Part shown: piece by piece, positions 16,338 to 35,264 of the stretch
Numbering within the stretch: the first letter of the stretch is position 1
Layout of the letters: every line of letters begins with the position of its first letter
Source of the DNA: Bacillota bacterium
GTDB lineage: Bacteria > Bacillota_I > Bacilli_A > Erysipelotrichales > Erysipelotrichaceae
Length of the DNA: 35,871 bases
Assembly (NCBI GenBank): GCA_030526175.1
Contig: JAUNDJ010000013.1
Coordinates: 1 to 35,871, forward strand
Direction of reading: 5' to 3'
Program-made: the position numbers and the translations under genes
Notes under the pieces: generated by a model
Databases searched by the model: none
Told to the model about the DNA's origin: nothing
Seen by the model: only the letters and a program-made list of their open reading frames with translations

Positions 16338-16370
16338 AGAAAATAAAGACTGATCAAAATGACCAGCCTT
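16338..16370 (-). terminator. First terminator of the giant surface-protein gene
   Basis: On the minus strand AAGGCTGGTCA pairs with TGATCAGTCTT (11 bp with two G-U pairs, 3-base loop), followed by TTATTTT, about ten bases after the stop codon. Confidence 0.82.
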
Positions 16371-16381
16371 TATTATATTAT

Positions 16382-19300
16382 CTATTCTGTTTCTTTACGT
16401 TTTTTCAACATAATCACAAGTAAAGCAAACATAGAAGCTAACATACCTCCTCCATAGAATGTAGAGTTAGTATTAACACTTGTAGGTGTACCGCCGTTGA
16501 CTTTTTTATCAACCATAACGATTTCTTTTACAACTTCTTTATTTCCTTTCTTATCAACCACAGAAATAGTTCCGTCAACATCGATTTCAAAAGTAATATC
16601 TTTTGCGATCGCATATCCTTTTGGAGCCGAAATTTCTTTTAATGTGTAAACACCTGGTTGTAATTCTGTAACATACGATTGACCCGCAACAGTAGTCCAA
16701 GTTTCTGTATAGGATTGACCATCTAATGTCGTACCAATAATTTGTAACTTCGCACCACCAATTAAGTCTTTCATATCTGTTTTATTAACAATTACTTTGT
16801 GGTTTGACCAAGCATCTTTCATTACGATTTCTTGCACTTCTTCTACACCATTTACAGTTACTGTAAAGTCAATAGATTCTGCAATTTCATAACCATTTGG
16901 AGCCATTACTTCTGTTAATGTGTAATCACCAGGTTGTAATTCAAGTTCATGCGATTTTCCAGCTTCTGAAATCCAAGTAATTTCTACTTGTCTACCATCT
17001 TTTGTAGTTCCAGTTACTGTTAATTCAGCACCTTCAATTTCTTTTCCATTAAAGTCAACTTTTGAAATCATTACCTTGTGATCTGACCACTTATCTTCCA
17101 TCTTGATATTTTGCACTTCATCAACACCTTCTACATCAACAGTAAATTCGATTGATTCAGCAACTTCGTATCCGTCAGGAGCTGTCACTTCCGTTAATGT
17201 ATATTCACCAGGTTGTAATTCAAGTTCGTGCGATTTACCAGCTTCTGATGTCCAAGTAATTTCTACTTTTTCACCATCTTTTGATGTTCCAGTCACTGTT
17301 AATTTTGCACCTTCAATTTCTTCTCCGGTAATGTCTACTTTAGAAATGGCAACTTTGTGATCCGCATACTTATCTACCATAACGACTTTGTCAACTTCAT
17401 CATCTCCGATAGTTACAATTCCTTCTTTGCTTACTACAAAAGTAATAGGATCGGCTTTTTCATAACCATCTGGAGCTGAGATTTCGCTTAGTACATAAGT
17501 TCCAGCTTTAACATTAATTTCCTTAACTTTTCCATCAGTTGTCCAAGTAAATTCTACTTGTTCACCACTGTCTGTTACACCATTTACTCTTAATTGAGCA
17601 TCGGCTAATTCTTCACCAGCAATATCTGTTTTACTAATAGTCACATCATATGTTGATAATTCGTCAATCATGATTAATTCATCCACTGCATTTCCATCAA
17701 CAATGATCATTCCTAATTCATTTACAGTAAATTCCACCGTTTCAGCAATATCATATCCTAAAGGAGCTTTATTTTCTGTAAATGTATATGTTCCTGGTTG
17801 TAATTGTACAAATTTCGCATCACCTGTTGATGTCCAAGTAATTGGTACAATTTCTTGACCATCTTTTCTATGACCAGCAATTGTTAATTCTGCACCTGCT
17901 AATTCATTACCAGCAATATCTTGTTTAGATACTAAGATAGTATGTTTTACCCAAGCATCTAACATGTAGACATTAGTACCTCTTACTGTTTTTCCATCCA
18001 CTGTAATTTTTCCAGTGTGATCAATAGTAAATGTTACTGGTCTAGCAATTTCAAATCCTGCTGGAGCATAATTTTCCACTAATGTGTAAGTTCCAGGTAA
18101 TACTTCTACTTCTTTTCCAGGAGCATCTGTAATCCAAGATTTAACAACGTTTCCGTCTTCATCATACAATGTTAAGCTTGCACCCATAACTTCTCTATTC
18201 GAGAAATCTGTCTTTTTAACAGTTACTAATTGTTCTGAATAATCATCAATCATGACTACTTTTTCAACTTCTTCATTTCCAACTTTTACGATTCCATCTT
18301 TATCCACTACGAATGTAATAGATTCAGATACTTCATAACCATTTGGAGCTGAGTTTTCTGTTAATGTGTATTCTCCTGGTTGTACAGAAATTTCATGTGA
18401 TTCACCTTCTACAGAAGTCCATGATTCAACTACATTTCCTTCACTGTCTGTTACTGATAACTGAGCACCTTCAATTTCTTTTCCAGAAATGTCCTGTTTA
18501 GAAATTACAACAGTTTGATCAGAGTATTCGTCAACCATTACGACTACATCCACAGTATCTTTTCCAACTTTTACGTTTCCATCTTTGTCCACTACGAATG
18601 TGATAGATTCAGATACTTCATAACCGTTTGGAGCTGTGTTTTCAGTTAATGTGTATTCTCCTGGTTGTACAGAGATTTCGTGTGATTGTCCTTCAACAGA
18701 AGTCCATGTATCGACTGTATTTCCTTCACTGTCTGTTACTGATAACTGAGCACCTTCAATTTCGTTTCCAGAAATGTCTTGTTTAGAAATTACTACAGTT
18801 TGATCCGAGTATTCGTCAACCATGATTACTGCATCAACTTTGACTTTTCCAACTTTTACGTTTCCATCTTTGTCCACTACGAATGTGATAGATTCAGATA
18901 CTTCATAACCATTTGGAGCTGAGTTTTCTGTTAATGTGTATTCTCCTGGTTGTACGCTAATTTCATGAGATTCACCTTTTACAGATGTCCATGTTTCCAC
19001 TACATTTCCTTCACTGTCTGTTACTGATAACTCTGCACCAGCAATTTCATTTCCGGAAATATCTTGTTTAGAAATCACAACAGTTTGATCCGAGTATTCG
19101 TCAACCATTTCGATTTCTTGTACTTCTTCTACACCCTGGATTCCCACTGTGAAATCAATTGATTCCGCTACTTCATATCCGTTTGGAGCCATTGTTTCTT
19201 CTAATGTGTATTCTCCTGGTTGTAGTTCAATTTCCTTGGCTTCTTTTCCAGATTCCCAAGTAATTTCGACTGTTTCTCCACCTTTTGTTGTTCCGGTAAT

Positions 19301-22300
19301 CTTCATTTGTGCGCCTTCTACTTCGTTTCCGGCTACATCGACTTTCGATACTTTCACTTTGTGATCTGTGTATTCGTCTGTCATGATTACTTTTTCAACT
19401 TCTTTTTCATTAATTGTCACTTTTCCATCTTTATCCACTGCGAATGTGATAGATTGTGATACTTCGTATCCTTCTGGAGCTGTGTTTTCAACTAATGTAT
19501 AAGTTCCTGGTTGAAGATCGATTCGATAAGATTTTCCTGCTTCCGATGTCCATGAAGCTACTTCATTTCCATCTTCGTCTGTTACAGATAATTCTGCACC
19601 GGCAATTTCATTTCCAATAATATCTTGTTTAGAAATCGCAACTTTTTGGTCGGCATATTCGTCAATCATAACGACTTTGTCAACTTCTTGTTCACTGATA
19701 GTTACTTTTCCATCTTTATCCACTTCAAAAGTAATAGATTCTGATTTTACATAACCATCTGGTGCTGTATTTTCCGTTAATGTGTATTCTCCTGGTTGTA
19801 CATTGATTTCATGAGATTCACCTTCTACAGATGTCCATGTATCAACTGTATTTCCTTCTTTATCTGTTACTGATAATTCTGCACCTTCAATTTCTTTTCC
19901 AGAAATATCCTGTTTAGAAATCACAACGGTTTGATCAGAGTATTCGTCAACCATGACTACTTTTTCAACTTCTTCACCACCAACTGTTACTTTTCCAGTT
20001 TCATCCACTACAAATGTGATTGATTCTGATACTTCGTATCCGTTTGGAGCTGTGTTTTCAGTTAATGTGTATTCTCCTGGTTGTACGCTAATTTCATGTG
20101 ATTCATCTTTTACAGATGTCCATGATTCAACTACATTTCCTTCTTTATCCGTTACAGTTAATTCTGCACCTTCAATTTCGTTTCCAAAAATGTCTTGTTT
20201 AGATATTACAACGGTTTGATCTGCGTATTCGTCTACCATAACTACAGCATCGACTTTGTCTTTTCCTACAGTTACTTTTCCATCTTTATCTACTACGAAT
20301 GTGATAGATTCAGATACTTCATAACCATTTGGAGCTGAATCTTCTGTTAATGTGTAAGTTCCTGGTTGTAATACTACATTTCTTGTATTTCCTGTTGATT
20401 CCCAAGTAATTGGTGTAATTTCTTGGCCATCTTCCGTTGTACCTGTGATTGTTAATGTTGCACCAGCTAATTCTTTTCCGGCAACATCTTGTTTTGAAAT
20501 CTTAACAGTTTGATCCGACCATGCGTCTACCATTTCGATTTCTTGTACTTCTTCTACACCCTGGATTCCCACTGTGAATTCAATTGATTCCGCTACTTCA
20601 TATCCGTTTGGAGCCATTGTTTCTTCTAATGTGTATTCTCCTGGTTGTAGTTCAATTTCCTTGGCTTCTTTTCCAGATTCCCAAGTAATTTCGACTGTTT
20701 CTCCACCTTTTGTTGTTCCGGTAATCTTCATTTGTGCGCCTTCTACTTCGTTTCCGGCTACATCAACTTTTGATACCTTCACTTTGTGGTTTTCGTATTC
20801 GTCTGTCATGACAACAGCGGATACTTCTTGTCCATTAACGCTGACTGTTCCTGTTTCATCCACTACGAATGTAATTGATTCAGATACTACATATCCTTCT
20901 GGAGCTGTGTTTTCTGTTAATGTGTATTCTCCTGGTTGAAGGTCTACTTTATGAGATTTTCCTTCTTCAGAAGTCCATGTTTCTACAACATTACCTTCAC
21001 TGTCTGTTACAGATAATTCTGCACCAGCGATTTCGTTTCCGACAATGTCTTGTTTAGAGATTATAACTTTTTGATCAGCGTATTCGTCAACCATGACTAC
21101 TTGATCAACTTCTTGTTCTCCTACAGTTACTTTTCCACTTAAATCCACTGAGAATGTTATAGTTGCAGCTTTTTCATATCCTAATGGAGCTAAGTTTTCC
21201 ACTAACTTGTAAGTTCCTGGTTGTAATGAAACTTCGTGTGATTGTCCTTCAACAGAAGTCCAAGTTTCTACTACATTTCCTGCATTGTCTGTTACTTTAA
21301 GTTGAGCACCAGAAATTTCTTTTCCAGTAATATCTTGTTTAGAAATAACAACATTGTGATCCGAGTATTCGTCAACCATGATTACTTGATCAACTTCTTG
21401 TCCTCCAATTGTTACTTTTCCAGTTTCATCCACTACGAATGTGATAGATTCTGATACTTCGTATCCGTTTGGAGCCGTTGTTTCTTCTAATGTGTATTCT
21501 CCTGGTTGTACAGAAATTTCGTGTGATTGTCCTTCTTCTGAAGTCCATGTATCCACTACGTTTCCTGATTTGTCAGTAACTTTAAGTTGTGCACCTTCAA
21601 TTTCTTTTCCAGAAATATCTTGTTTAGAAATTGTCACTCTTTGATCTGAGAACGCATCTACCATTACTACATTATCTACTGCAACACCTTTTACGGTCAC
21701 TTTTCCAGTATGATCTACACTAAATGTGATTGATTCTGCTTTTTCGTATCCTAGAGGAGCAAGGTCTTCGACTAATGTATATGTTCCTGGTTGTACAGTA
21801 ATTTCATGAGTTTGATCTTCTCTAGATGTCCATGAATCTATAACTTTTCCGTCTTGATCTTTTACTTTCAAATCGGCACCAGAAATTTCATTTCCATTAA
21901 TATCTTGTTTAGAAATTACAACAGTTTGGTCAGAGTATTCATCAACCATGACTACTTTATCAACTTCTTCGTTTCCAACTGTTACTTTTCCATCTTTATC
22001 TACTATGAATGTGATAGATTCGGATACTTCGTAACCATTTGGAGCTGTGTTTTCAGTTAATGTGTATTCTCCTGGTTGTACAGTAATTTCATGAGATTCA
22101 CCTTTTACAGATGTCCATGCGTCTACTTCGTTTCCTTCACTGTCTGTTACTGATAACTGAGCACCTTCAATTTCTTTTCCAGAAATATCTTGTTTAGAAA
22201 TAACAACTGTTTGGTCAGAGTATTCGTCAACCATGACTACTTTATCAACTTTGTCATTACCAACTTTTACGTTTCCATCTTTGTCTACTACAAATGTGAT

Positions 22301-25300
22301 AGATTCGGATACTTCATAACCATTTGGAGCTGAGTTTTCTGTTAATGTGTAAGTTCCTGGTTGTACGCTAATTTCATGAGAAACATCTTTTTCGGATGTC
22401 CATGAATCGACTTCGTTTCCTTCACTGTCTGTTACTGTTAATTCTGCACCTTCAATTTCTTTTCCAGAAATGTCTTGTTTAGAAATCACAACGGTTTGAT
22501 CTGCGTATTCGTCTACCATAACTACAGCATCGACTTTGTCTTTTCCTACAGTTACTTTTCCATCTTTATCTACTACGAATGTGATAGATTCAGATACTTC
22601 ATAACCATTTGGAGCTGAATCTTCTGTTAATGTGTAAGTTCCTGGTTGTAATACTACATTTCTTGTATTTCCTGTTGATTCCCAAGTAATTGGTGTAATT
22701 TCTTGGCCATCTTCCGTTGTACCTGTGATTGTTAATGTTGCACCAGCTAATTCTTTTCCGGCAACATCTTGTTTTGAAATCTTAACAGTTTGATCCGACC
22801 ATGCGTCTACCATTTCGATTTCTTGTACTTCTTCTACACCCTGGATTCCCACTGTGAATTCAATTGATTCCGCTACTTCATATCCGTTTGGAGCCATTGT
22901 TTCTTCTAATGTGTATTCTCCTGGTTGTAGTTCAATTTCCTTGGCTTCTTTTCCAGATTCCCAAGTAATTTCGACTGTTTCTCCACCTTTTGTTGTTCCG
23001 GTAATCTTCATTTGTGCGCCTTCTACTTCGTTTCCGGCTACATCAACTTTTGATACCTTCACTTTGTGGTTTTCGTATTCGTCTGTCATGACAACAGCGG
23101 ATACTTCTTGTCCATTAACGCTGACTGTTCCTGTTTCATCCACTACGAATGTAATTGATTCAGATACTACATATCCTTCTGGAGCTGTGTTTTCTGTTAA
23201 TGTGTATTCTCCTGGTTGAAGGTCTACTTTATGAGATTTTCCTTCTTCAGAAGTCCATGTTTCTACAACATTACCTTCACTGTCTGTTACAGATAATTCT
23301 GCACCAGCGATTTCGTTTCCAGCAACGTCTTGTTTAGAAATTGTTACTTTTTGATCAGCGTATTCGTCAACCATGACTACTGCATCGACTTTGTCTTTCC
23401 CAACTTTTACGTTTCCATCTTTGTCTACTACGAATGTGATAGATTCGGATGCTTCGTATCCATTTGGAGCTGTGATTTCGATTAATTGATAAGTACCTGG
23501 TTGTACGCTAATTTCATGTGATTCACCTTTTACAGATGTCCATGTTTCCACTACATTTCCATCTTTGTCTGTTACTGATAACTCTGCACCAGCAATTTCG
23601 TTTCCAGAAATGTCTTGTTTAGAAATCACTACGGTTTGATCCGAGTATTCGTCAACCATTTCGATTTCTTGTACTTTGTCTACACCTTGGATTCCCACTG
23701 TGAATTCAATTGATTCCGCTACTTCATATCCGTTTGGAGCCATTGTTTCTTCTAATGTGTATTCTCCTGGTTGTAGTTCAATTTCCTTGGCTTCTTTTCC
23801 AGATTCCCAAGTAATTTCGACTGTTTCTCCACCTTTTGTTGTTCCGGTAATCTTCATTTGTGCGCCTTCTACTTCGTTTCCGGCTACATCGACTTTCGAT
23901 ACTTTCACTTTGTGATCTGTGTATTCGTCTGTCATGATTACTTTTTCAACTTCTTTTTCATTAATTGTCACTTTTCCATCTTTATCCACTGCGAATGTGA
24001 TAGATTGTGATACTTCGTATCCTTCTGGAGCTGTGTTTTCAACTAATGTATAAGTTCCTGGTTGAAGATCGATTCGATAAGATTTTCCTGCTTCCGATGT
24101 CCATGAAGCTACTTCATTTCCATCTTCGTCTGTTACAGATAATTCTGCACCGGCAATTTCATTTCCAATAATATCTTGTTTAGAAATCGCAACTTTTTGG
24201 TCGGCATATTCGTCAATCATAACGACTTTGTCAACTTCTTGTTCACTGATAGTTACTTTTCCATCTTTATCCACTTCAAAAGTAATAGATTCTGATTTTA
24301 CATAACCATCTGGTGCTGTATTTTCCGTTAATGTGTATTCTCCTGGTTGTACATTGATTTCATGAGATTCACCTTCTACAGATGTCCATGTATCAACTGT
24401 ATTTCCTTCTTTATCTGTTACTGATAATTCTGCACCTTCAATTTCTTTTCCAGAAATATCCTGTTTAGAAATCACAACGGTTTGATCAGAGTATTCGTCA
24501 ACCATGACTACTTTTTCAACTTCTTCACCACCAACTGTTACTTTTCCAGTTTCATCCACTACAAATGTGATTGATTCTGATACTTCGTATCCGTTTGGAG
24601 CTGTGTTTTCAGTTAATGTGTATTCTCCTGGTTGGACAGAAATTTCGTGTGATTGTCCTTCTTCTGAAGTCCATGATTCAACTACATTTCCTTCACTGTC
24701 TGTTACTGTTAATTCTGCACCTTCAATTTCGTTTCCAGAAATATCTTGTTTAGAAATTACAACTGTTTGATCAGAGTATTTATCAACCATAACGACAGCA
24801 TCGACTTTGTCTTTTCCTACAGTTACGTTTCCTTCTTTGTCTACTACGAATGTGATAGCTTCAGCTAATTCATAACCATTAGGAGCTGCGTTTTCGGTTA
24901 ATGTGTAAGTTCCTGGTTGTACGCTAATTTCATGTGATTGTCCTTCAACAGAAGTCCATGTATCCACTACATTTCCTTTATTATCTGTTACAAACAATTG
25001 TGCACCAGCAATTTCGTTTCCAGAAATGTCTTGTTTTGAAATCACAACAGTTTGATCCGAGTATTCATCAACCATGACTACTTGATCAACTTCTTCGTTT
25101 CCAACTGTTACTTTTCCATCTTTATCTACTACGAATGTGATAGATTCGGATTTTTCATAACCGTTTGGAGCTGTGTTTTCGGTTAATGTATAAGTTCCTG
25201 GTTGTACAGAAATTTCGTGTGATTGTCCTTCTTCTGAAGTCCATGTATCCACTACGTTTCCTGATTTGTCAGTAACCTTAAGTTGTGCACCTTCAATTTC

Positions 25301-28300
25301 TTTTCCAGAAATATCTTGTTTAGAAATTACAACAGTTTGGTCAGAATATTCGTCAACCATAATTACTTGATCAACTTCTTCATTTCCAACTGTTACTTTT
25401 CCATCTTTGTCTACTACGAATGTGATAGATTCGGATACTTCATAACCATTAGGAGCTGAGTTTTCTGTTAATGTGTAAGTTCCTGGTTGTACGCTAATTT
25501 CATGCGATTCATCTTTTACAGATGTCCATGAATCGACTTCATTTCCTTCACTGTCTGTTACGGATAACTGAGCACCTTCAATTTCTTTTCCAGAAATATC
25601 TTGTTTAGAAATCACAACAGTTTGATCCGAGTATTCATCAACCATGACTACTTGATCAACTTCTTCTTTTTCAACTTTTACTTTTCCAGATTTAGTTACT
25701 ACAAACGTAATCGATTGTGCGATTTCATATCCATTTGGAGCTTGTGTTTCTGTTAAAGTATATGTTCCTGCTGGAAGACTTAATTCATGTGTTGTACCAT
25801 TTGAAGTCCAAGTAATAGGTGTAATTGTTTGACCATCTTCACTTGTTCCGGACACACTCAAACGAGCATCTTTAATTTCATTTCCGGCAATATCTACTTT
25901 AGAAATCGATACATTATGATTCGACAATTCATCCTTCATCACTACAGCTTCTACAGCTTGTCCATTTACTCGAACAACACCTTCTTTATCGACTGTGAAT
26001 GAGATAGATTCTGCAATGTCATATCCTAATGGCGCTTTCTTTTCGATTAATGTATATGCACCTGGTTGTAATGCCACTTCTTTTGTCTCATCTGCTTTTG
26101 AAACCCATGAAATCACATTTTGACCACTTGCATCAACAATGGATAATTCAGCACCAGCTAGTTCATTTCCAGCTATATCTGTTTTCTTAATTACAACGTC
26201 TTGATCTGCATACGCATCAATCATGGTAACCGCATTTACTTCATTTCCACCAACAGTTACTTTTCCATCTTTAGTTACTTTGAAGGTAATAGATTCAGAT
26301 TTTACATAACCTTTTGGAGCTGTAGTTTCTGTTAATGTATATGTTCCTGGTTGTAATTCCACTTTATGAACAGATCCATCGGAAGTCCATTGTTCAACAA
26401 CTTCAGAGTCTTTATTTTTAATAACTAAACTAGCACCTGCTAATTCTTGTCCGCCAATATCTTGTTTAGAAATTGAAACTTCTTTTCCTGGATAACTATT
26501 TGTGATAGTAAATCCATTTTCAACATCTCCACTTACTTTGGAATTAAATGCTTTTCCTGTCATATCTTCAACAACTGTATAAACATATGCATTTCCTGCA
26601 TCGTCTGTTTTTTCATAATTGTTGAAAGATGCTTGCCATTGATTTGCGTTCGATAATTCTAATTCTCCAACAACTTGACCACCACGTAATAATTTTACGG
26701 TAACAGCTGTTTGTTCTTCCGTAGGAATTTCACTTGACCAAATTTTTTCGACTGGAATCGAAATTTTTTCTTTTTCGTTCTTAATCGTCAAAATATCGTT
26801 GTTGTAATAAATATATTGATCGTAATCTACATCGGTATTGCTTACTTGGAAATAGTATTTTGTAGTATTCGCTTGATATCCTGGTAGAGCTGAAATTTCT
26901 TGTACATAATATGTATCTCCTGGCCAGATTACCCAATCGTCACGATCCATTTTACCTTCTAAGAACGCAACCCCATTTTCATCTGTTGTCGCAATAACTG
27001 GTTGTCCACGTCCTAATACTGGTGTTCCATCTCCATTAAATAATTGGAATTGTACACCCGCTAATGTTTTCGCGTTATTGTCTTTATCAACTTTCAAAAT
27101 ACGAATTGCTAAGTTTGAACCAGCACCTTCACCAGAACTTTGTACATCTACCCATTCAGACGAACTAGCCGAATAACCTTTCCATTGAATGTTATTTACA
27201 ATGTTCACACCATTTTCATTCTTTGTTACGGTAGCATCGTATGTAATGATAATTGTTTTTCCATCTGGAATATTTCCAAATGTGATTGTGTTTCCTTTAT
27301 ATTTTCGTGTTACACCATCAATCACATTACCATTTGCATCTGTAATTTGAATAGTTGTATAGTCAATTGACAAGTTTTCATACGAATCCACAAAATCCAT
27401 TGGATTTCCATGGTTCATTTCCATTGCTTCTTTATTAATAGTAATTCTGTATTTCGCAACTTTATTTTTTGAATTAATTTCACCTTTGTTGATTAACTCT
27501 TTTGAAACATTGTCTAATTGCCAGAAGAAATCTTTATGAGCCGATTCTCCATCGTATTCTACTGTATTTCCTAAATTTGCTTGTCCATTATTGCGAATGG
27601 CTGCTGCTTTTAACAACTCTTCATCGTTGGTTGCTTCTAAGAAATATTCAATCTTATAAAATTCGTATAACTCACCATTTTGATTTTTTGGAAGATCTTC
27701 TTCAGCCATAGTGAATTGTCCACCTGTTGCGTTTGGTGTAAACGAAATAGCTTTTTGACCATCCCCTTGATAGTATTGGTTACCACCATAAATATAAGAT
27801 TGTCCTGGTGACATAGATAATAAAGTTGTATCGAATACTTCGTTTACAACTAAATCACCACTTACGTTATTAAAAGATATCCAATATTTATATCCTTTTA
27901 CTTCGCCTCTTTCGACATCCCAATAAGAAGCAGGTTGTCCATCTTTTGTAAGCGAAGTAGTTCTACCTTTAATCTCAACTTGAGCCGTATCTTCGACAAA
28001 ATTTCCATCTTTTAAATATAAGATTGCTTTATTTTGGTGAACTGTATCTTGTCCTGTTGTTTGTGAATATTCTTTCCAATTCGCATTAATCTCTGTTTCC
28101 ACAGAAATCACAACTTGACGACTTGAATTCGAAGCTTTTAATCCCGGATTTCCATCCTTAGTAAATACAATCTTTCCATTTCCCCATTCGTCTTCTTGAT
28201 ATGAGGCATTTTCTCCATCTAGTAATCCACTGACTACATCCATGGTAACAATTTCATCTTTAAGCATTTGTCCATTTGCATAAACAGAAGGAACAACATC

Positions 28301-30391
28301 TTCTAATTCCGCTTTTGATAGACCAGTTTTAGGAACAGAAATCGCAATTTGCCAAGTCACTTTTTCATCTGTTTTCGAAACATATGTTTTTTCTACACCT
28401 GGTAATGCATCTGATCCTGGTCCTTCAGCCGAAGCGTCTGATGTAATAGCTCTAGACGACTTGTTGTAATATAGTTCTGCCGTATTTGTGTGCCATTTAA
28501 AATCACCAGTTTCCCCTGCATACTCAACCCAATCTTGATTGATTGCAGTTTCTACAGTGACCTTAATTGTACGAGGCGAATCGCTCGCTTTTAATCCTGG
28601 TTGTCCATCGTTTGTGAAAACAATAGTACCGCTAGTCTTGTCCACTTGTGCATTTTCACCAGATAATAAACCTTCTGTTACCCTCATACTAGTAATAGTA
28701 TCTGAATAAGATTCACTACCTGAATTCATAGAAGGTACGATATCTTTTAATTCCGCTTTCGTAAGTCCTTTAGCAGGTACGATGATTTCGATATCCCAAA
28801 TCATTTTTTCATCTGTTTTTGAAGCTAACGATTTAGTTAATCTAGGAATTGATGAATAATCTACATCGATATTTGCACTACCAAATGCTTCTTTTCCTTT
28901 GTCCGAAGTCACCTTGTTGTTTGCTTGTGTGCTATATTCAAGAGACTCCATCGTAGAAGCATCTACTTGTGTGTTATACGTAAATGTATACTTACTAGCT
29001 TTATCCGTATTTGGAATTGTGTATTCCCAAGAATTTCCACTTGGTGTAAAGTTATCAATTTCTTGATCATCTTGTTTCACAACTACCGATCCTTGATAAT
29101 GATGCAATTCTGGATTGGTAATTGTATCCGTAACTTTGGATCCACTCACATTTGCACGTTTGTTTTCGTTATAAGTAACAGTCCATGTAATCGTATAAGA
29201 ACCATCATCGTTCTTTACTGCATTTCCATATTTTCCAATAGAGAATACATCAATTTGTGGTTTTGATTCTTTAACGATATCATTTGGTAATTCGTTCGAA
29301 TGTACTTTTACTTGGTTGTTTAATTCTTGTTTCAAAGTAGCTTCATCCGTTTTACCACTTACTTTTGTAAAATCAACACTTGCTGTGTACTCAATAACAA
29401 CGCTCTCGTTGTAATCCATGGAAGGAATTGTGATATCAAATCCGTTTCCAGATTGACCACCGTTATAAGAAACGTTTTCCCCATTTTTCTTTACTGTAAG
29501 ATCATTATTATACGATAATGCAGATCCTGTGATTGTATCCGCCACTTTAACTCCCGTGTTACTTCCATTTGAAACGACAGTAATACGATAATGAACTTTA
29601 TTGTCACTTGAGTTGTAGTAACTTTGTTTTTCAACACTCATGCTGTTGGAAGTATCCACCGTTACTTCTTTAAGTGCTTGTCCACCACTTCCAATAAAGG
29701 TAGCAGTTTTTCCTAAAGAAGCATTGAATCGAATATGGAATTCAACGTTAGGCGCACCTGTTAAGTGTTCAAAATTAGAATCTGCTGTATTAAAATGTAC
29801 AACAATAGAATTTCCAGAAATAGAATATGTATTTCCTGAAATAGTAAAGGTTCCTTCTGAATCTGTAATCACAATATTGAAGGTTCCATTATCGTTAATA
29901 CCTGTTACACCTTCTGGTAAAGTGTAGACTAAAGTATCCCGATTGGCGAATTGAAGAGATTTACCTTCTCTAAATCCTACTTCAAATTCCACAACTTGGT
30001 TTGGTTTAACAGTATCTGGCCCTGAAATAGTGTAGGCAAAATTCGTTAAATTTGAACTTGTTGGAATAGAAGTGTCTTCGTTTTGTTGTTCAATCTCTTC
30101 TTCCTCTTCTTCAACAATCTCATCCTCAATTGGTTCGGTATCTTGTTCTGTAGCCGATGTTTCTGGATCTGTAATTGCATCATTTACATTTTCAAAATCA
30201 CCGTCTTCAGACTCTGAAGGCTGTTGAATTTGAGGTGTTTCAACAGGTTCAGCGGGTACTTCTTCTGATGCTGTTACGATTTCCGCTTCTGCTTCTCTCG
30301 CATAAACAATCATACTTGTTGATTTGTTCATGGTCGAAAAAGCCAAAACGACCGCCAACATGGTTGAAAGTACCCTTTTAAAAGTCTTCAT
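16382..30391 (-). CDS. Giant surface protein with 35 CnaB2-like isopeptide domains
   Basis: A 4669-residue secreted protein. Order: signal peptide 1-31 (cleavage near IVYA); acidic linker to about 110; beta-rich adhesin-like domains about 112-1090, including two similar ~145-residue modules (515-659, 660-805); SpaA-like domain about 1095-1208; Cna_B-like domain about 1210-1300; 35 tandem ~95-residue domains 1304-4630; hydrophobic segment and KKRKETE tail. Each repeat has Lys in SKxD, Glu in YTLTExxAPxGY and Asp in VMVDEY, the triad that in S. pyogenes FbaB CnaB2 makes a Lys-Asp isopeptide bond. The likely role is a very long, protease- and force-resistant stalk carrying the N-terminal domains away from the cell; the ligand is unknown. 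No LPXTG is present. AAAGGAGG seven bases before the ATG fixes the start. It is a single-gene unit bounded by terminators. Confidence 0.93.
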   Translation of the reverse strand: MKTFKRVLSTMLAVVLAFSTMNKSTSMIVYAREAEAEIVTASEEVPAEPVETPQIQQPSESEDGDFENVNDAITDPETSATEQDTEPIEDEIVEEEEEEIEQQNEDTSIPTSSNLTNFAYTISGPDTVKPNQVVEFEVGFREGKSLQFANRDTLVYTLPEGVTGINDNGTFNIVITDSEGTFTISGNTYSISGNSIVVHFNTADSNFEHLTGAPNVEFHIRFNASLGKTATFIGSGGQALKEVTVDTSNSMSVEKQSYYNSSDNKVHYRITVVSNGSNTGVKVADTITGSALSYNNDLTVKKNGENVSYNGGQSGNGFDITIPSMDYNESVVIEYTASVDFTKVSGKTDEATLKQELNNQVKVHSNELPNDIVKESKPQIDVFSIGKYGNAVKNDDGSYTITWTVTYNENKRANVSGSKVTDTITNPELHHYQGSVVVKQDDQEIDNFTPSGNSWEYTIPNTDKASKYTFTYNTQVDASTMESLEYSTQANNKVTSDKGKEAFGSANIDVDYSSIPRLTKSLASKTDEKMIWDIEIIVPAKGLTKAELKDIVPSMNSGSESYSDTITSMRVTEGLLSGENAQVDKTSGTIVFTNDGQPGLKASDSPRTIKVTVETAINQDWVEYAGETGDFKWHTNTAELYYNKSSRAITSDASAEGPGSDALPGVEKTYVSKTDEKVTWQIAISVPKTGLSKAELEDVVPSVYANGQMLKDEIVTMDVVSGLLDGENASYQEDEWGNGKIVFTKDGNPGLKASNSSRQVVISVETEINANWKEYSQTTGQDTVHQNKAILYLKDGNFVEDTAQVEIKGRTTSLTKDGQPASYWDVERGEVKGYKYWISFNNVSGDLVVNEVFDTTLLSMSPGQSYIYGGNQYYQGDGQKAISFTPNATGGQFTMAEEDLPKNQNGELYEFYKIEYFLEATNDEELLKAAAIRNNGQANLGNTVEYDGESAHKDFFWQLDNVSKELINKGEINSKNKVAKYRITINKEAMEMNHGNPMDFVDSYENLSIDYTTIQITDANGNVIDGVTRKYKGNTITFGNIPDGKTIIITYDATVTKNENGVNIVNNIQWKGYSASSSEWVDVQSSGEGAGSNLAIRILKVDKDNNAKTLAGVQFQLFNGDGTPVLGRGQPVIATTDENGVAFLEGKMDRDDWVIWPGDTYYVQEISALPGYQANTTKYYFQVSNTDVDYDQYIYYNNDILTIKNEKEKISIPVEKIWSSEIPTEEQTAVTVKLLRGGQVVGELELSNANQWQASFNNYEKTDDAGNAYVYTVVEDMTGKAFNSKVSGDVENGFTITNSYPGKEVSISKQDIGGQELAGASLVIKNKDSEVVEQWTSDGSVHKVELQPGTYTLTETTAPKGYVKSESITFKVTKDGKVTVGGNEVNAVTMIDAYADQDVVIKKTDIAGNELAGAELSIVDASGQNVISWVSKADETKEVALQPGAYTLIEKKAPLGYDIAESISFTVDKEGVVRVNGQAVEAVVMKDELSNHNVSISKVDIAGNEIKDARLSVSGTSEDGQTITPITWTSNGTTHELSLPAGTYTLTETQAPNGYEIAQSITFVVTKSGKVKVEKEEVDQVVMVDEYSDQTVVISKQDISGKEIEGAQLSVTDSEGNEVDSWTSVKDESHEISVQPGTYTLTENSAPNGYEVSESITFVVDKDGKVTVGNEEVDQVIMVDEYSDQTVVISKQDISGKEIEGAQLKVTDKSGNVVDTWTSEEGQSHEISVQPGTYTLTENTAPNGYEKSESITFVVDKDGKVTVGNEEVDQVVMVDEYSDQTVVISKQDISGNEIAGAQLFVTDNKGNVVDTWTSVEGQSHEISVQPGTYTLTENAAPNGYELAEAITFVVDKEGNVTVGKDKVDAVVMVDKYSDQTVVISKQDISGNEIEGAELTVTDSEGNVVESWTSEEGQSHEISVQPGEYTLTENTAPNGYEVSESITFVVDETGKVTVGGEEVEKVVMVDEYSDQTVVISKQDISGKEIEGAELSVTDKEGNTVDTWTSVEGESHEINVQPGEYTLTENTAPDGYVKSESITFEVDKDGKVTISEQEVDKVVMIDEYADQKVAISKQDIIGNEIAGAELSVTDEDGNEVASWTSEAGKSYRIDLQPGTYTLVENTAPEGYEVSQSITFAVDKDGKVTINEKEVEKVIMTDEYTDHKVKVSKVDVAGNEVEGAQMKITGTTKGGETVEITWESGKEAKEIELQPGEYTLEETMAPNGYEVAESIEFTVGIQGVDKVQEIEMVDEYSDQTVVISKQDISGNEIAGAELSVTDKDGNVVETWTSVKGESHEISVQPGTYQLIEITAPNGYEASESITFVVDKDGNVKVGKDKVDAVVMVDEYADQKVTISKQDVAGNEIAGAELSVTDSEGNVVETWTSEEGKSHKVDLQPGEYTLTENTAPEGYVVSESITFVVDETGTVSVNGQEVSAVVMTDEYENHKVKVSKVDVAGNEVEGAQMKITGTTKGGETVEITWESGKEAKEIELQPGEYTLEETMAPNGYEVAESIEFTVGIQGVEEVQEIEMVDAWSDQTVKISKQDVAGKELAGATLTITGTTEDGQEITPITWESTGNTRNVVLQPGTYTLTEDSAPNGYEVSESITFVVDKDGKVTVGKDKVDAVVMVDEYADQTVVISKQDISGKEIEGAELTVTDSEGNEVDSWTSEKDVSHEISVQPGTYTLTENSAPNGYEVSESITFVVDKDGNVKVGNDKVDKVVMVDEYSDQTVVISKQDISGKEIEGAQLSVTDSEGNEVDAWTSVKGESHEITVQPGEYTLTENTAPNGYEVSESITFIVDKDGKVTVGNEEVDKVVMVDEYSDQTVVISKQDINGNEISGADLKVKDQDGKVIDSWTSREDQTHEITVQPGTYTLVEDLAPLGYEKAESITFSVDHTGKVTVKGVAVDNVVMVDAFSDQRVTISKQDISGKEIEGAQLKVTDKSGNVVDTWTSEEGQSHEISVQPGEYTLEETTAPNGYEVSESITFVVDETGKVTIGGQEVDQVIMVDEYSDHNVVISKQDITGKEISGAQLKVTDNAGNVVETWTSVEGQSHEVSLQPGTYKLVENLAPLGYEKAATITFSVDLSGKVTVGEQEVDQVVMVDEYADQKVIISKQDIVGNEIAGAELSVTDSEGNVVETWTSEEGKSHKVDLQPGEYTLTENTAPEGYVVSESITFVVDETGTVSVNGQEVSAVVMTDEYENHKVKVSKVDVAGNEVEGAQMKITGTTKGGETVEITWESGKEAKEIELQPGEYTLEETMAPNGYEVAESIEFTVGIQGVEEVQEIEMVDAWSDQTVKISKQDVAGKELAGATLTITGTTEDGQEITPITWESTGNTRNVVLQPGTYTLTEDSAPNGYEVSESITFVVDKDGKVTVGKDKVDAVVMVDEYADQTVVISKQDIFGNEIEGAELTVTDKEGNVVESWTSVKDESHEISVQPGEYTLTENTAPNGYEVSESITFVVDETGKVTVGGEEVEKVVMVDEYSDQTVVISKQDISGKEIEGAELSVTDKEGNTVDTWTSVEGESHEINVQPGEYTLTENTAPDGYVKSESITFEVDKDGKVTISEQEVDKVVMIDEYADQKVAISKQDIIGNEIAGAELSVTDEDGNEVASWTSEAGKSYRIDLQPGTYTLVENTAPEGYEVSQSITFAVDKDGKVTINEKEVEKVIMTDEYTDHKVKVSKVDVAGNEVEGAQMKITGTTKGGETVEITWESGKEAKEIELQPGEYTLEETMAPNGYEVAESIDFTVGIQGVEEVQEIEMVDEYSDQTVVISKQDISGNEIAGAELSVTDSEGNVVETWTSVKGESHEISVQPGEYTLTENSAPNGYEVSESITFVVDKDGNVKVGKVKVDAVIMVDEYSDQTVVISKQDISGNEIEGAQLSVTDSEGNTVDTWTSVEGQSHEISVQPGEYTLTENTAPNGYEVSESITFVVDKDGNVKVGKDTVDVVVMVDEYSDQTVVISKQDISGKEIEGAQLSVTDSEGNVVESWTSVEGESHEISVQPGEYTLTENSAPNGYEVSESITFVVDKDGIVKVGNEEVEKVVMIDDYSEQLVTVKKTDFSNREVMGASLTLYDEDGNVVKSWITDAPGKEVEVLPGTYTLVENYAPAGFEIARPVTFTIDHTGKITVDGKTVRGTNVYMLDAWVKHTILVSKQDIAGNELAGAELTIAGHRKDGQEIVPITWTSTGDAKFVQLQPGTYTFTENKAPLGYDIAETVEFTVNELGMIIVDGNAVDELIMIDELSTYDVTISKTDIAGEELADAQLRVNGVTDSGEQVEFTWTTDGKVKEINVKAGTYVLSEISAPDGYEKADPITFVVSKEGIVTIGDDEVDKVVMVDKYADHKVAISKVDITGEEIEGAKLTVTGTSKDGEKVEITWTSEAGKSHELELQPGEYTLTEVTAPDGYEVAESIEFTVDVEGVDEVQNIKMEDKWSDHKVMISKVDFNGKEIEGAELTVTGTTKDGRQVEITWISEAGKSHELELQPGDYTLTEVMAPNGYEIAESIDFTVTVNGVEEVQEIVMKDAWSNHKVIVNKTDMKDLIGGAKLQIIGTTLDGQSYTETWTTVAGQSYVTELQPGVYTLKEISAPKGYAIAKDITFEIDVDGTISVVDKKGNKEVVKEIVMVDKKVNGGTPTSVNTNSTFYGGGMLASMFALLVIMLKKRKETE
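19155..20083 (-). repeat. 929-bp perfect duplication, copy 1
   Basis: Identical base for base, by line comparison, to 23706-24634 (offset 4551 bp). It covers most of one long-type unit and the next three units. No synonymous change was seen, so the duplication or gene conversion is recent. Confidence 0.9.
20208..21040 (-). repeat. 833-bp perfect duplication, copy 1
   Basis: Identical base for base, by line comparison, to 22488-23320 (offset 2280 bp, eight repeat units). It spans about three domains, including one short and two long units. Differences begin abruptly at both ends. Confidence 0.9.
22488..23320 (-). repeat. 833-bp perfect duplication, copy 2
   Basis: Partner of 20208-21040. The flanks diverge at once (for example GACAATGTC versus AGCAACGTC at one end), marking the limits of the copied tract. 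Confidence 0.9.
23706..24634 (-). repeat. 929-bp perfect duplication, copy 2
   Basis: Partner of 19155-20083. One edge is a single A/T change that turns Asp into Glu in the long-type unit; the other is a TTGTACG versus TTGGACA change. Confidence 0.9.
27977..28849 (-). repeat. Two ~145-residue modules in the adhesin-like region
   Basis: Two adjacent segments align over their length: SKTDEKMIWDIEIIVPAKGL / SKTDEKVTWQIAISVPKTGL, then KAELKDIVPS / KAELEDVVPS, GLLSGENA / GLLDGENA, and NDGQPGLKAS / KDGNPGLKAS. They are old, diverged duplicates of a beta-rich domain unlike the CnaB2-type units. Function is unknown; ligand binding or cross-linking is possible. Confidence 0.7.
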
Positions 30392-30398
30392 GCAAATT

Positions 30399-30498
30399 CC
30401 TCCTTTCTCTTATTTTGCATAGGATACACTCGATAATTATTTACTAAATCCATATTCTATTTAGCTAATTTACGAAAATGTACCTAACTTACATTATA
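30399..30498 (-). promoter_or_regulatory. Promoter and ribosome site of the giant gene
   Basis: A TATAAT -10 (30493-30498) has only a weak -35 at 17 bases (TATAGA). The transcript would carry a leader of about 95 bases ending in a perfect AAAGGAGG (30399-30406), seven bases before the ATG. I see no convincing riboswitch or operator in the leader. Confidence 0.5.
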
Positions 30499-30574
30499 AT
30501 TCATAAATCTATTTTTCTATAACAAAACATTGAAATCGTTTACATTTCTGATGAATATAACAAATTCATTACAT

Positions 30575-30620
30575 AAAAAGCTCCAGAATCCCCATAAATA
30601 AAGGATTTCTGAAGCTTTTT
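30575..30620 (-). terminator. Intrinsic terminator of the ATP-grasp operon
   Basis: A long stem on the minus strand (AAAAAGCTTCAGAAATCC with GGATTCTGGAGCTTTTT, one bulge and wobble pairs) ends in a T-run. Its A/T-flanked symmetry could also stop plus-strand transcripts. It separates the operon from the giant gene's promoter. Confidence 0.8.
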
Positions 30621-30672
30621 CATCTTATTAATTTTTATTATTCTATTGACACTAAACGGCTGCCCAAAAATT

Positions 30673-31602
30673 TTAAATATCCTTTTTTATTTTCACAATT
30701 GAAGTGTGAGAATACACCATACTTTTTCCATGAACAAAAAATATTTTTCCTTCTTGTGTAGAAACAATGCTTTCTCTTTCCGCATGTGTGTATGGATCAT
30801 AGATAATTGCGACCTGTTGTCCAATCGATACATGTTCGTCCACTTGAACCAGTGTTTTTAAAAATCCACCACATGTGGATTTAATCGAAAGTATCCTATC
30901 TTCTTCAACAACTTCACTCTTATATCCTCCAGCTACTGGATATGAAATGATACCTTTTTCATACATAAATCTCAAAATTGCTTCTTCCGCTTCTTTGGCA
31001 GTTTTCTCATCAATTTCCTCACATGCTTTTGTATACAAGGAATACGCTTTGCAATTCCAAATTTGCCAATTGTAATTTAGCGTCGTTGTATCATATGGAC
31101 GAGGGTTTCTCACAACTATAGAAGCTAGGCCAAAATGTTTCGCTTCCTCAATGTCTTCCAATCCCGTTTTCATCATTCGAACATGTGTAGAAAAATGTCC
31201 TGGAATATAGAAACTTGTTAGCTGAATCCCATACTCACAATCTTTAATTTGTTCAAAAAGACCATCCGCAATACGTTGTGTGGTTTCTCCTAAACTATAT
31301 CCTGGAAACATACGATTAATATCGGTTCCATCACTAGCCCAAAAACGAGTTTCCATATTCGTTGAATACGTATTCGCACAAGGAATAACCATAATACGAT
31401 GTGTATTTGTAAGATATCCTTTCGATTCTAGTTGTCTTAATCTTTCTATTAATAAAGAACAAATATACATTTGTTGAACTTCATTTCCTCTTAAAGAACC
31501 AATGACACAAATTGACTCTTCTCCTTTCCCAAACTCATAGCTTCGAATGCGAAAAGAATCTCTATACATGGAATTTAACTCATATAACACTTTTTCAATC
31601 AT
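30673..31602 (-). CDS. AstE/M14-like protein with a degraded zinc site
   Basis: A 309-residue protein of the succinylglutamate desuccinylase/aspartoacylase (M14-like) fold, paralogous to the gene just upstream: both have an N-terminal G-x-x-x-G-[ND]-E block, MVIPCANTYS / DIYPCMNPLG, NRMFPG / NRIFPG, and a C-terminal barrel-sandwich-like region (LVQVDEHVSIGQQVAIIYDP). Here the zinc motif G-x-H-G-N-E reads GSLRGNE, with Arg38 for the His; the second His motif (DIHAS in the partner) is IQLTS; and the partner's LEMG with the catalytic Glu is VVRN. Catalysis by the usual mechanism seems unlikely. It may be a binding or regulatory subunit for its partner. The start overlaps the upstream stop by ATGA. 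Confidence 0.8.
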   Translation of the reverse strand: MIEKVLYELNSMYRDSFRIRSYEFGKGEESICVIGSLRGNEVQQMYICSLLIERLRQLESKGYLTNTHRIMVIPCANTYSTNMETRFWASDGTDINRMFPGYSLGETTQRIADGLFEQIKDCEYGIQLTSFYIPGHFSTHVRMMKTGLEDIEEAKHFGLASIVVRNPRPYDTTTLNYNWQIWNCKAYSLYTKACEEIDEKTAKEAEEAILRFMYEKGIISYPVAGGYKSEVVEEDRILSIKSTCGGFLKTLVQVDEHVSIGQQVAIIYDPYTHAERESIVSTQEGKIFFVHGKSMVYSHTSIVKIKKDI

Positions 31603-32516
31603 TGTTCTTCCTCCAATATACGAGCCACTAAACTTCCTTCGTTACAAATCGGATACTTTCGAATCGTAAATAAAAGACCATTCCATTGACTTTTTACTTC
31701 AGCCAACAAATTTCCAGTTAGTGGATCCACAATTTCTCCTATTTTCTGACCTTTGACAACTTTCGTGTTCACTTCTACTTTTGAAATAAACAATCCTGCT
31801 TGTTCTGCATTTAGGAAACGAATGTTTTTATCGAAGCCAATAATTGGTTCCATAACAGAAAACTTTTCTTCTATCATTCCAAGTTGATGCATCGCATTTA
31901 ATATACCTTGAACACTATTATCTCCATATTCATAAGTCAATCTTGAACCGATTCCCATTTCTAATACCAAGGTTGGAGTATCCACAATATTCAAACAATA
32001 TCCTAAGGTAGATTCTAATACCTTATTTTCCTCGTGAACCCATAAAAAGTTCGCATTGACCCATTTTGCCATAGGAATTAACTTTTCTTTAAATAAAGTA
32101 TTAATTCGGATTTGTGGAAGTTCTACCAAATACGCATTACTTGCATGAATATCAATAACCAAGTCGGCTCCTTTTAAATCTTCTACAATGCAATGCGCTA
32201 AATACTCAACCATACTTCCTTCCTCATCTCCTGGGAAAATACGGTTCATATCTAAATCAAACATAGGAACTTTTCTTTGAATAGAGTCCATTCCTAATGG
32301 ATTCATGCATGGATAAATATCCACGATTCCATCTGTTTTATATTTTTTCAGCTCTTGTTGTAGCTTGTAAGAAACGTATTGTCCTTCTAATTCATCACCA
32401 TGAATTCCTGTCACAATACAAATCCTCTTTTTACTCTTTCCACCTTGAATACGTTGTTTTACCAACTTATATTTTTCATCAATCGGAAGATTTACACTTG
32501 AAAATATTTCAATCAT
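31599..32516 (-). CDS. AstE/M14-like zinc carboxypeptidase or deacylase
   Basis: A 305-residue succinylglutamate desuccinylase/aspartoacylase-family hydrolase. Zinc ligands are His39 and Glu42 in TGIHGDELEG and His124 in VIDIHAS; the general-base Glu is probably 186 in LVLEMG; NRIFPG (91-96) supplies substrate-binding Asn-Arg. The C-terminal region, about 210-305, resembles a lipoyl-like barrel (VNTKVVKGQKIGEIVDPLTG). Members cleave amide bonds of N-acylated amino acids or C-terminal residues. In this operon it may remove or trim residues joined by the ATP-grasp enzyme, which is inference. It overlaps the transglutaminase gene by eight bases and the degraded paralogue by four. Confidence 0.85.
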   Translation of the reverse strand: MIEIFSSVNLPIDEKYKLVKQRIQGGKSKKRICIVTGIHGDELEGQYVSYKLQQELKKYKTDGIVDIYPCMNPLGMDSIQRKVPMFDLDMNRIFPGDEEGSMVEYLAHCIVEDLKGADLVIDIHASNAYLVELPQIRINTLFKEKLIPMAKWVNANFLWVHEENKVLESTLGYCLNIVDTPTLVLEMGIGSRLTYEYGDNSVQGILNAMHQLGMIEEKFSVMEPIIGFDKNIRFLNAEQAGLFISKVEVNTKVVKGQKIGEIVDPLTGNLLAEVKSQWNGLLFTIRKYPICNEGSLVARILEEEQ

Positions 32517-33300
32517 AAATAACCTCTTCTATACTAATTTCAATATTTTGTTTCTGAGAAACATTCATTCCATAAAATACACCTTTGTTTATTAAAGTAT
32601 CTTTATGATCTCTTCCTTTAGAAAAGATGACATAATTATCATCGATTAAGAGATTGTTCGTAGGATCTGTTCCATACCAATATCCATTGGCATAGAATTC
32701 TACCCAAGCATGTGTGTATTTTTCTCCGTTCATAATACCAGCTACATATCTTGCAGGAATTCCGGATTCTCTTAAAAAACCAATAAGAATATGGGCATAA
32801 TCTTGGCAAACTCCTTTTTTATTTTCAAAAGCCATCTTTCCGCTGGTATTAATTCCTGTAGCTCCTTTTTCGTAAGTCATATATTCAAAAATATACTTTG
32901 AAAAATATATAGCTTTTTCGTATGTATTCAAACCATGTGTTAATAGTTCAAGTTCTACCAAACATTGTTTCATATGCGAACTTAATGATGTTGCTTCTGT
33001 TTGTTTCAAAAATACAGGTAATAAAGAATCGTCCCTATCGTATTGTGTCCAATCTACTTGAACGACACTTCTAATGGAAACCGAAAAAGTATCGTGTTTT
33101 CCAATTGTATTTCCATAAATGATATTATTTCTAAAACAATCTTGACTTAAAGAAAAGTATTCAGAATTTACATAAATTTTATTTGATATAACTTGTTGTC
33201 TTGGTTGTGTTTTTGGTAAACATTTCAAAGTAAAATAATGATGTTCCACAGGTTTAGAAAACAATAGTTCCATACTATAGTTTATTTGAAATGTCTTCAT
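32509..33300 (-). CDS. Transglutaminase-like cysteine protease/amidase
   Basis: A 263-residue protein with the bacterial transglutaminase N-terminal beta region (about 1-110) and a transglutaminase core. The catalytic triad is visible: Cys165 in KKGVCQDYAHILIGFLR, His197 in YTHAWVEFY, Asp212 in WYGTDPTNN. The set matches COG1305 proteins that sit beside alpha-E and circularly permuted ATP-grasp genes and are thought to be peptidases or amidases acting on the modified peptide. No signal peptide is visible, so it is probably cytosolic. Three bases separate it from the alpha-E gene. Confidence 0.92.
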   Translation of the reverse strand: MKTFQINYSMELLFSKPVEHHYFTLKCLPKTQPRQQVISNKIYVNSEYFSLSQDCFRNNIIYGNTIGKHDTFSVSIRSVVQVDWTQYDRDDSLLPVFLKQTEATSLSSHMKQCLVELELLTHGLNTYEKAIYFSKYIFEYMTYEKGATGINTSGKMAFENKKGVCQDYAHILIGFLRESGIPARYVAGIMNGEKYTHAWVEFYANGYWYGTDPTNNLLIDDNYVIFSKGRDHKDTLINKGVFYGMNVSQKQNIEISIEEVIYD

Positions 33301-33303
33301 ACT

Positions 33304-33963
33304 CTATAAAAGCCCTTCTACACACTGAATACATTCTGCATAATGAATAGAATCGGAGAACACTTCTTTTTTCAACAAATCCATTTTGGAAAAGTCAAAC
33401 GGTAGAATCGTTTTATGAAGACGATGTTCCAAACTATTAAAAGCTTTCACAACATCCTTTTTTCCTTTGCGCAAACGAAGATACATATCCAAACGTTCTT
33501 GTCTTTGTCCCAATTTGATAATATCTCGAACATCATAATCTTCTACATTTTCAGACAAACATGCCCAGAAAGCTAAAATATGATCGATCACGAGTTGTAA
33601 ATCTAATAGAAAAGAATCAAAATCTTTAATCGATTTTAGTTCATTTAGTGCCAATTCTAAATATGTCATTGTTTCCGTACCAATTTCATTTCTTAATACA
33701 ATACAGTTATCATAAGCACGATATAGATTGGCCAAAAGACTATCTGGAACTGTTTCATCGCTTACATATCTTTCGACAAAATCTATTGGATCGTTATATA
33801 TCATTGGGATTTGTAGATTTCTACAATACGTTTGATATGTAGAAGGATCATCTAACATATCATCATAACAGTGAAAAAATTCTTTAATTGTTAAGTAAAC
33901 ACGCTCACTGTAGCGTCCTAACCAAATTAGGTTGTCTACTCGTTCTAAAGAGATAATACCCAT
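33304..33963 (-). CDS. Alpha-E domain protein (DUF403)
   Basis: A 219-residue all-helical protein of the alpha-E/DUF403 family (COG2307). The N-terminus carries the family's Arg/Glu signature (ERVDNLIWLGRYSERVYLT), with IKLGQRQERLDMYLRLRKGK later. Family members are usually around 300 residues, so this is a compact version. The family always travels with circularly permuted ATP-grasp enzymes, and in some species is fused to them; a role as partner subunit is assumed but its chemistry is unknown. It overlaps the ATP-grasp gene by 19 bases. Confidence 0.87.
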   Translation of the reverse strand: MGIISLERVDNLIWLGRYSERVYLTIKEFFHCYDDMLDDPSTYQTYCRNLQIPMIYNDPIDFVERYVSDETVPDSLLANLYRAYDNCIVLRNEIGTETMTYLELALNELKSIKDFDSFLLDLQLVIDHILAFWACLSENVEDYDVRDIIKLGQRQERLDMYLRLRKGKKDVVKAFNSLEHRLHKTILPFDFSKMDLLKKEVFSDSIHYAECIQCVEGLL

Positions 33964-35264
33964 GTGTCTTTAAAACCTCCTCCTTGACTTGAATTCACAA
34001 TAAAACTATCTGGATTTCTTGAAAAACGTGTTAAACCGCTCTTCCATACTTTTGTTTCTTTTCCACTTAGCACAAACACTCTAAGGTCTGCTTTTCTTTC
34101 AACGGTTTCTCCATTTTCAACAATCGGAAGATCTTTGAAATCTATTATTTCTTGAGCAATAAATCGTCTTGGTTCTTTCAACATCTTTTGAATAAATACT
34201 TCTTTTTGTTCTGAATTTAATGTGTTTCCAAAAAAGACACCATATCCTCCAGCTTCCGCCACATCTTTAATCACTAATTCTTCAAAATGTTCTAGTATAT
34301 ATTTTTTATCTTCTTCATAATATGGAAGATATGTTGGAGCATTTTTTAAAATCGGTTTTTCGTGCAAATAATATTCGACCATTTTTGGAACAAAATAATA
34401 AATTCCTTTGTCGTCGGCTACCCCATTTCCTGGTGCGTTAATGATCGCAATATTTCCTTTTTTATAAATTTCCATTAAGTGTGGAATTCCAATTAAGGAT
34501 TCTTCTAAAAAAGTCATCGGGTCTAAATACTCATCACTTATACGACGATATAAAGCACCTATTTTTTCTAAAGAACCATCATAATTTTTAAAATACAAAT
34601 AATCTTCTTTTACGATTACATCTTGAGAAGAAACAAGCTTACTTCCTGTTTGTTCAGCTAAATAAGAATGTTCAAAATATGCAGCGTTCATTCTTCCAGG
34701 TGTAAAAATCGCATTGATTCCTCCTGTATTCACATGATCCATGACTTCTTTTAATAATTTCGCATAATCTCGATTTTCTTCTACATGATTGTCACGGAAT
34801 GTTTTAGGACTCGCTTTACGACATAAATCACGAGCAATCATTGGATAACTAGCACCACTAGGAACACGAAGATTGTCCTCAAGCACATACCAATTTCCAT
34901 CTTTTCCCTCAACCAAATCAATTCCTGAAATATGCGAGTGTATGTGTTGTGCTGGCTCAATTCCTTCACATTCCACTAAATATCCTGATGACGAATATAT
35001 AAACTCAGCAGGAATTACTCCATCTTTGACAATTTTCTTTTCCCCATAAATATCTTCCAAAAATGCATTTAACGCATTCACTCGTTGAATTAACCCTTTG
35101 TTTAAATATTCAAAATCTGCTTTCGAGATAATTCGTGGAATACAATCAAATGGAAATAATTGTTCATTAAAAACATTGTTTTTATAAATCCCAAATTTAA
35201 CACCATATCTTTGTAACAAGTGATTAATTTTACTTTGTTGCTCTATCAAACTATTCATTTTCAT
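33945..35264 (-). CDS. Circularly permuted ATP-grasp ligase
   Basis: A 439-residue COG2308 protein. Hallmarks are FPFDCIPRIISKADFEYL, the FLEDIYGEKKIVKDGVIP segment, VLEDNLRVPSGASYPM (nucleotide/metal site), INAPGNGVADDKGIYYFVP and the C-terminal RADLRVFVLSG...WKSGLTRFSRN. Such enzymes form amide or peptide bonds through an acyl-phosphate; these clusters are predicted to make or attach short peptides, with substrate unknown. Two ATGs are possible, 35264 and 35258; AGGAAGG fits either, and the longer is given. It is first of five overlapping genes and has its own promoter plus a terminator-like hairpin in the leader. Confidence 0.92.
   Translation of the reverse strand: MKMNSLIEQQSKINHLLQRYGVKFGIYKNNVFNEQLFPFDCIPRIISKADFEYLNKGLIQRVNALNAFLEDIYGEKKIVKDGVIPAEFIYSSSGYLVECEGIEPAQHIHSHISGIDLVEGKDGNWYVLEDNLRVPSGASYPMIARDLCRKASPKTFRDNHVEENRDYAKLLKEVMDHVNTGGINAIFTPGRMNAAYFEHSYLAEQTGSKLVSSQDVIVKEDYLYFKNYDGSLEKIGALYRRISDEYLDPMTFLEESLIGIPHLMEIYKKGNIAIINAPGNGVADDKGIYYFVPKMVEYYLHEKPILKNAPTYLPYYEEDKKYILEHFEELVIKDVAEAGGYGVFFGNTLNSEQKEVFIQKMLKEPRRFIAQEIIDFKDLPIVENGETVERKADLRVFVLSGKETKVWKSGLTRFSRNPDSFIVNSSQGGGFKDTWVLSL

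Follow-up and report, generated by a model that had tools for sequence, protein, structure and literature searches.

A predicted giant fibrillar adhesin with 35 tandem SpyCatcher-like CnaB2-type domains in its stalk

The one long open reading frame (ORF) of the window, by which we mean the whole 35,871-nt stretch of DNA that was analysed, encodes 4669 amino acids (about 507 kDa, pI 4.2, no Cys). The product is very probably a cross-linked, single-chain fibrillar adhesin, in which a cysteine-less stalk of CnaB2-type domains carries an Ig-like head; tandem stalk domains within a single chain, the make-up of a fibrillar adhesin, are indeed found in this ORF. This explanation draws on a Lys-Glu-Asp triad kept throughout the stalk, a profile match to the structure 2x5p, a SpyCatcher-like predicted fold, and a signal peptide together with a C-terminal segment and tail. 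It is further favoured by a head shared with other stalks, purifying selection between units, exact block duplications, and a Shine-Dalgarno sequence and terminator-like stem of the gene's own. The host is probably a Holdemanella-like gut bacterium of the Erysipelotrichaceae. The features are as follows.

30399–30406, minus strand: ribosome-binding site AAAGGAGG, strong, 7 nt before the ATG (read directly)
16382–30391, minus strand: probable giant fibrillar adhesin, single ORF (ORF listing and translation)
30299–30391, minus strand: signal peptide, residues 1–31 (sequence; hydropathy 1.35 over residues 11–29)
30059–30298, minus strand: acidic low-complexity linker, residues 32–111 (sequence)
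26765–30058, minus strand: head, residues 112–1209, Ig-like domains with a SpaA domain at the end (homologues, AF2 model, Ig-like matches)
26771–27106, minus strand: SpaA domain, residues 1096–1207, with K1100/E1165/N1205 (Pfam PF17802, E 2.1e-14)
26495–26758, minus strand: Cna_B domain, residues 1212–1299 (Pfam PF05738, E 7e-17)
16502–26479, minus strand: stalk, 35 tandem CnaB2-type units of 92–98 aa (motif parsing, alignment, profile, fold)
23706–24634 and 19155–20083, minus strand: exact 929-bp direct repeat (sequence)
22488–23320 and 20208–21040, minus strand: exact 833-bp direct repeat (sequence)
16385–16501, minus strand: C-terminus VNGGTPTSVNTNS-TFYGGGMLASMFALLVIML-KKRKETE, hydrophobic segment and basic tail (hydropathy 1.83)
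16340–16369, minus strand: intrinsic-terminator-like stem CTGGTCA-TTT-TGATCAG, then TCTTTATTTT (read directly)

Judging from sequence alone, the signal peptide would be cleaved near IVYA/RE. Parsing at the V-x-I-S-K-x-D motif delimited 35 contiguous head-to-tail units, and the limits of the array fall within a few bases of those in the original prediction (16495–26482), which had proposed 35 domains of the FbaB CnaB2 type in one protein with Lys, Glu and Asp retained in each. The 35-row alignment agrees on the triad: its 15 invariant columns include K5, E51 and D88 (unit-1 numbering), and W31 and other core positions are likewise invariant. Variant spellings of the Asp strand (IEMVD, LIMID) occur in units 10, 13, 21, 26 and 31, with the Asp itself kept in all. 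The codon for this acceptor Asp is mixed (13 GAT and 22 GAC), and its invariance is therefore not merely the result of recent copying. Amino acid identity between units averages 57% over all pairs, with a minimum of 32%, and 60% between neighbours. Silent changes exceed coding ones (median pairwise pS 0.51 versus pN 0.29), a sign of purifying selection between units. The family-profile comparison suggested with the original prediction placed Pfam SpaA on 36 stretches and Cna_B on one, and NCBIfam pilus_ancill_1 on 35. Minor family matches to DUF4399, TraK_C and Csf5 were read as by-products of the repeats.

The subtype of the units is supported by the profile search and the predicted fold, in addition to the triad. 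Searched against the PDB, the 35-row profile found 2x5p, the CnaB2 domain of FbaB, as its top match (E 1.6e-27), followed by SpyCatcher entries, and the Lys, Glu and Asp of the units align with the triad region of 2x5p. Structure prediction for paired units, also suggested at the outset, gave an AlphaFold2 model of units 4–5 with a mean pLDDT of 96.3, which shows a CnaB fold with the tag strand. Foldseek superposed this model on SpyCatcher (4mli) at 1.1 Å over 82 columns with 43% identity, on SpyCatcher003 (9oj3) at 1.0 Å, and on 2x5p at 2.0 Å over 96 columns; proximity of the triad residues is taken from these superpositions (about 1.0–1.2 Å for SpyCatcher) and not from atomic Lys–Asp distances. 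The lysine, catalytic Glu and acceptor Asp stand at the CnaB2 positions in 35/35 units, and chance or low-complexity repeats are ruled out by the PDB profile match, the fold and the triad. FbaB CnaB2 of Streptococcus pyogenes (2x5p; SpyCatcher/SpyTag 4mli) thus resembles the stalk unit in fold, in its Lys-Glu-Asp triad and at about 42–43% identity. The solved FbaB fragment has one domain of this type, whereas the present protein has 35 in tandem.

With this fold and triad, the formation of 35 isopeptide bonds in the stalk is strongly predicted, and the array is best read as a long, cross-linked stalk. In the proposed mechanism of adhesion, each of the 35 units would fold independently after secretion, and the Lys of its first strand would condense with the Asp of its last strand under catalysis by the buried Glu. 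Each bond would tie both ends of its domain, so that a pulling force bypasses the fold. The stalk would act as a rod that hardly stretches and resists proteases, roughly 120–160 nm long if each unit spans about 3.5–4.5 nm, and would carry the N-terminal multi-Ig head outward past the cell wall and the polymers of the surface.

Two other arrangements of the bonds bear on this mechanism. The units could fold and yet in many cases lack the isopeptide bond, leaving an ordinary Ig-like rod that is not fully locked. Bond formation does depend on surroundings beyond the triad, and the variation of the isopeptide-bond signature among DUF11 family members (PMC12617251) counts in the same direction. We nonetheless consider a partly unlocked rod improbable, given that the triad is constant in every unit while other columns drift, that W31 and the core positions are constant too, and that the unit fold matches SpyCatcher at about 1 Å. 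It is the CnaB2 subtype, moreover, that splits into a tag and a catcher (SpyTag/SpyCatcher), and C-terminal strands might in this style be swapped between neighbouring units or molecules to give intermolecular covalent networks. Such swapping seems highly improbable: in the pair model each unit has one copy of the strand pattern and the linker is short, 2x5p, a single domain, corresponds to one unit, and an intact domain should close on itself. Read as a stalk locked unit by unit, the array would be a nearly uniform, naturally occurring polymer of the SpyCatcher/SpyTag-type domain, in which a single chain combines many clearly distinct sequences that keep the triad. New tag/catcher candidates can be drawn from its units, and the giant stalk can serve to test how many self-locking domains a cell is able to secrete and fold one after another.

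The head, which the original prediction, confined to the stalk, did not take into account, has homologues in seven other Erysipelotrichaceae adhesin genes, at about 30% identity. The head-bearing ORFs measure 4083 aa in G535, 3583 aa in G523 (which has a second one), 1552 and 1589 aa in G205, and 1209 aa in G538, with a partial one in G516; they carry other stalk domains and at most one unit-like match each. The giant adhesins G535:C37 (4083 aa) and G523:C28 (3583 aa) illustrate this, being homologous in the head (30–37% identity) but with stalks of other repeat domains that again hold no more than one unit-like match each. Head and stalk therefore behave as separate modules, and relatives would have combined the head with stalks of other kinds. 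In the 8-row alignment, K255/D285/N358, K387/D422/N492 and K964/D1002/N1066 are invariant in 8/8 head homologues, and further head domains retain partial K-D-N triads. Lys-Asp-Asn is the triad pattern of CnaA-type isopeptide domains. The SpaA domain of the head has K1100 and E1165 in 8/8 homologues, with N or D as acceptor. On these residue patterns the head itself is probably cross-linked, and about 40 (40–43) cross-links are plausible in the whole protein, counting the stalk, the head triads, SpaA and Cna_B. The AF2 model of the head is of moderate quality (pLDDT 76, pTM 0.37); its informative Foldseek matches were PrgB Ig-like domains, pilins and the S. gordonii C123 fragment. Matches to complement and macroglobulin proteins were set aside as long, poor superpositions (rmsd above 40 Å). 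A phmmer search of the PDB with the region before the stalk (residues 112–1304) returned no match, and one part of the conserved Ig-like head gave a weak Pfam match to Collagen_bind (E 0.0016, below cut-off).

The exact direct repeats of 929 bp (A) and 833 bp (B) lie inside the array in the order A-B-B-A. Short reads could not span them, so that 35 is the count in the present assembly and the true number is uncertain. The array could be partly an assembly product, with a real unit number similar to but different from 35 and the 833-/929-bp repeats mis-joined or collapsed. Both repeats exceed short-read length in a draft genome of 186 contigs, and repeat elements are not accurately resolved by short reads (PMC9704523). 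We regard this as unlikely, though by no means negligible: the reading frame is open throughout without ambiguous bases, most units differ from one another (as the mean for neighbours shows), the units of the present array occur on no other contig of the genome, and a collapse of repeats would usually make the array shorter. The block duplications of exact identity also suit a Periscope-type stalk, whose main role would be a change of length by repeat recombination that raises or hides the head. Periscope proteins reach >40 repeats (PMC8201768), and a protein of the same genus (L140) has 3 units of the same type. Yet identity between adjacent units, at 60% on average, is below the 82–100% of the SHIRT example (PMC8201768), and L140 may not be orthologous to the giant adhesin. 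That length change is the main role is therefore possible but somewhat doubtful, and it would be compatible with the cross-linked adhesin that we favour. For such an adhesin, the gene may have lengthened by unequal recombination among near-identical repeats.

A pattern scan of genomes from 84,980 species (GTDB-wide) yielded 209 relatives, the best 80 of which were examined with up to 10 kb per side. Among these 80, the longest contiguous run of the CnaB2 subtype was 10 units, followed by 8 and 6, although longer arrays may be missed owing to contig ends and the restriction to the best 80 of 209 loci. The unusual length claimed for the array stands to this extent, whereas its novelty had been overstated, as giant adhesins of the general kind, some with cross-linked stalks as long or longer, were already described. 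The giant TIE adhesin of Mobiluncus mulieris (7651 aa) is likewise one giant chain, with 51 cross-linked Ig-like domains (PMC10619420). It differs from the present protein in its mixture of ester, isopeptide and disulfide types and its thioester head, and the isopeptide domain solved from it is like domain 2 of Spy0128, with Lys-Asn in place of the Lys-Asp of CnaB2 (PMC10619420). In AggLb of Lactobacillus paracasei, a long CnaB-like stalk likewise bears N-terminal domains, which bind there and may do so here, but it has 20 almost identical repeats, an LPXTG signal and a head of six collagen-binding domains (PMC5014864). Fibrillar adhesin-like proteins as a group have 1–73 stalk domains, among which SpaA is the second commonest (PMC8286594). 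The global survey of isopeptide bonds worked from AlphaFold DB models of no more than 1280 residues, so that proteins of the present size lie beyond its reach (PMC12617251). From the same genus comes L140 (1436 aa) of Holdemanella sp. MAG4, whose CnaB2-type units score as high as 107 bits; unlike the giant adhesin, it has 3 such units and a sorting-like motif, GPKTG. The present protein is an extreme member of a known adhesin class and not a new category; the unusual part is the length and uniformity of its CnaB2-type stalk. A separate observation from the scan was a Ruminococcus ORF (L138:547-16050) of at least 5168 aa, which runs off its contig and has about 20 scattered, mostly weaker CnaB-like matches.

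The motif ahead of the C-terminal hydrophobic segment is TPTSV, a degenerate sequence and not a canonical LPXTG, and Gram_pos_anchor (PF00746) attains 14.4 bits, short of the cut-off of 20 that no ORF of the present genome reaches. Sortase (PF04203) was not detected in the present draft even at E 10, save for one fragment with a stop, nor in the draft of G004 (93% complete), whereas G001–G003 of the same genus have 2–7 sortase matches. As the present draft is 90.3% complete, the absence of sortase is suggestive only. With neither a sortase nor a canonical sorting motif found, attachment is uncertain. One tentative and rather unlikely possibility is that this unusually long and perhaps longest uninterrupted CnaB2 stalk occurs in a lineage whose sortases have been lost, where a locked rod of ~4,600 residues would be held by its C-terminal membrane segment and not by peptidoglycan.

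The giant gene appears to stand alone. Terminator-like stems, read directly, follow both the gene itself and the gene upstream; a consensus terminator scan of 30300–30680 did not list the upstream stem. An MntP gene lies downstream. Upstream, at 30673–35264 (minus strand), CP_ATPgrasp, Alpha-E, transglutaminase-like and two AstE/AspA-like genes follow one another closely in what looks like a peptide-ligase type cluster, and G004 (L147) has ORFs of closely similar sizes in matching order. By its flanking proteins (84–86% identity), G004 is the closest relative, and its draft has no matching stalk units; the giant gene is therefore not genus-wide, as far as the drafts show. The two G004 contigs on either side of the position of the giant gene both stop there, at edges (L147:1-330 and L153:1-200) with matching termini, which are probable insertion-sequence ends.

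Other surface proteins were seen in the same genome as the giant adhesin. A second CnaB-type protein (L009:4368-10993) has five contiguous units and the tail VNTGD. Between it and an upstream ORF lies a group-II-intron-type reverse transcriptase ORF (L009:6590-8470), and the upstream ORF also ends within SpaA-type domains, so that a surface-protein gene may here be intron-interrupted. A further SpaA-containing surface protein of 1473 aa (L010:180-4601) has a TPDTA tail.
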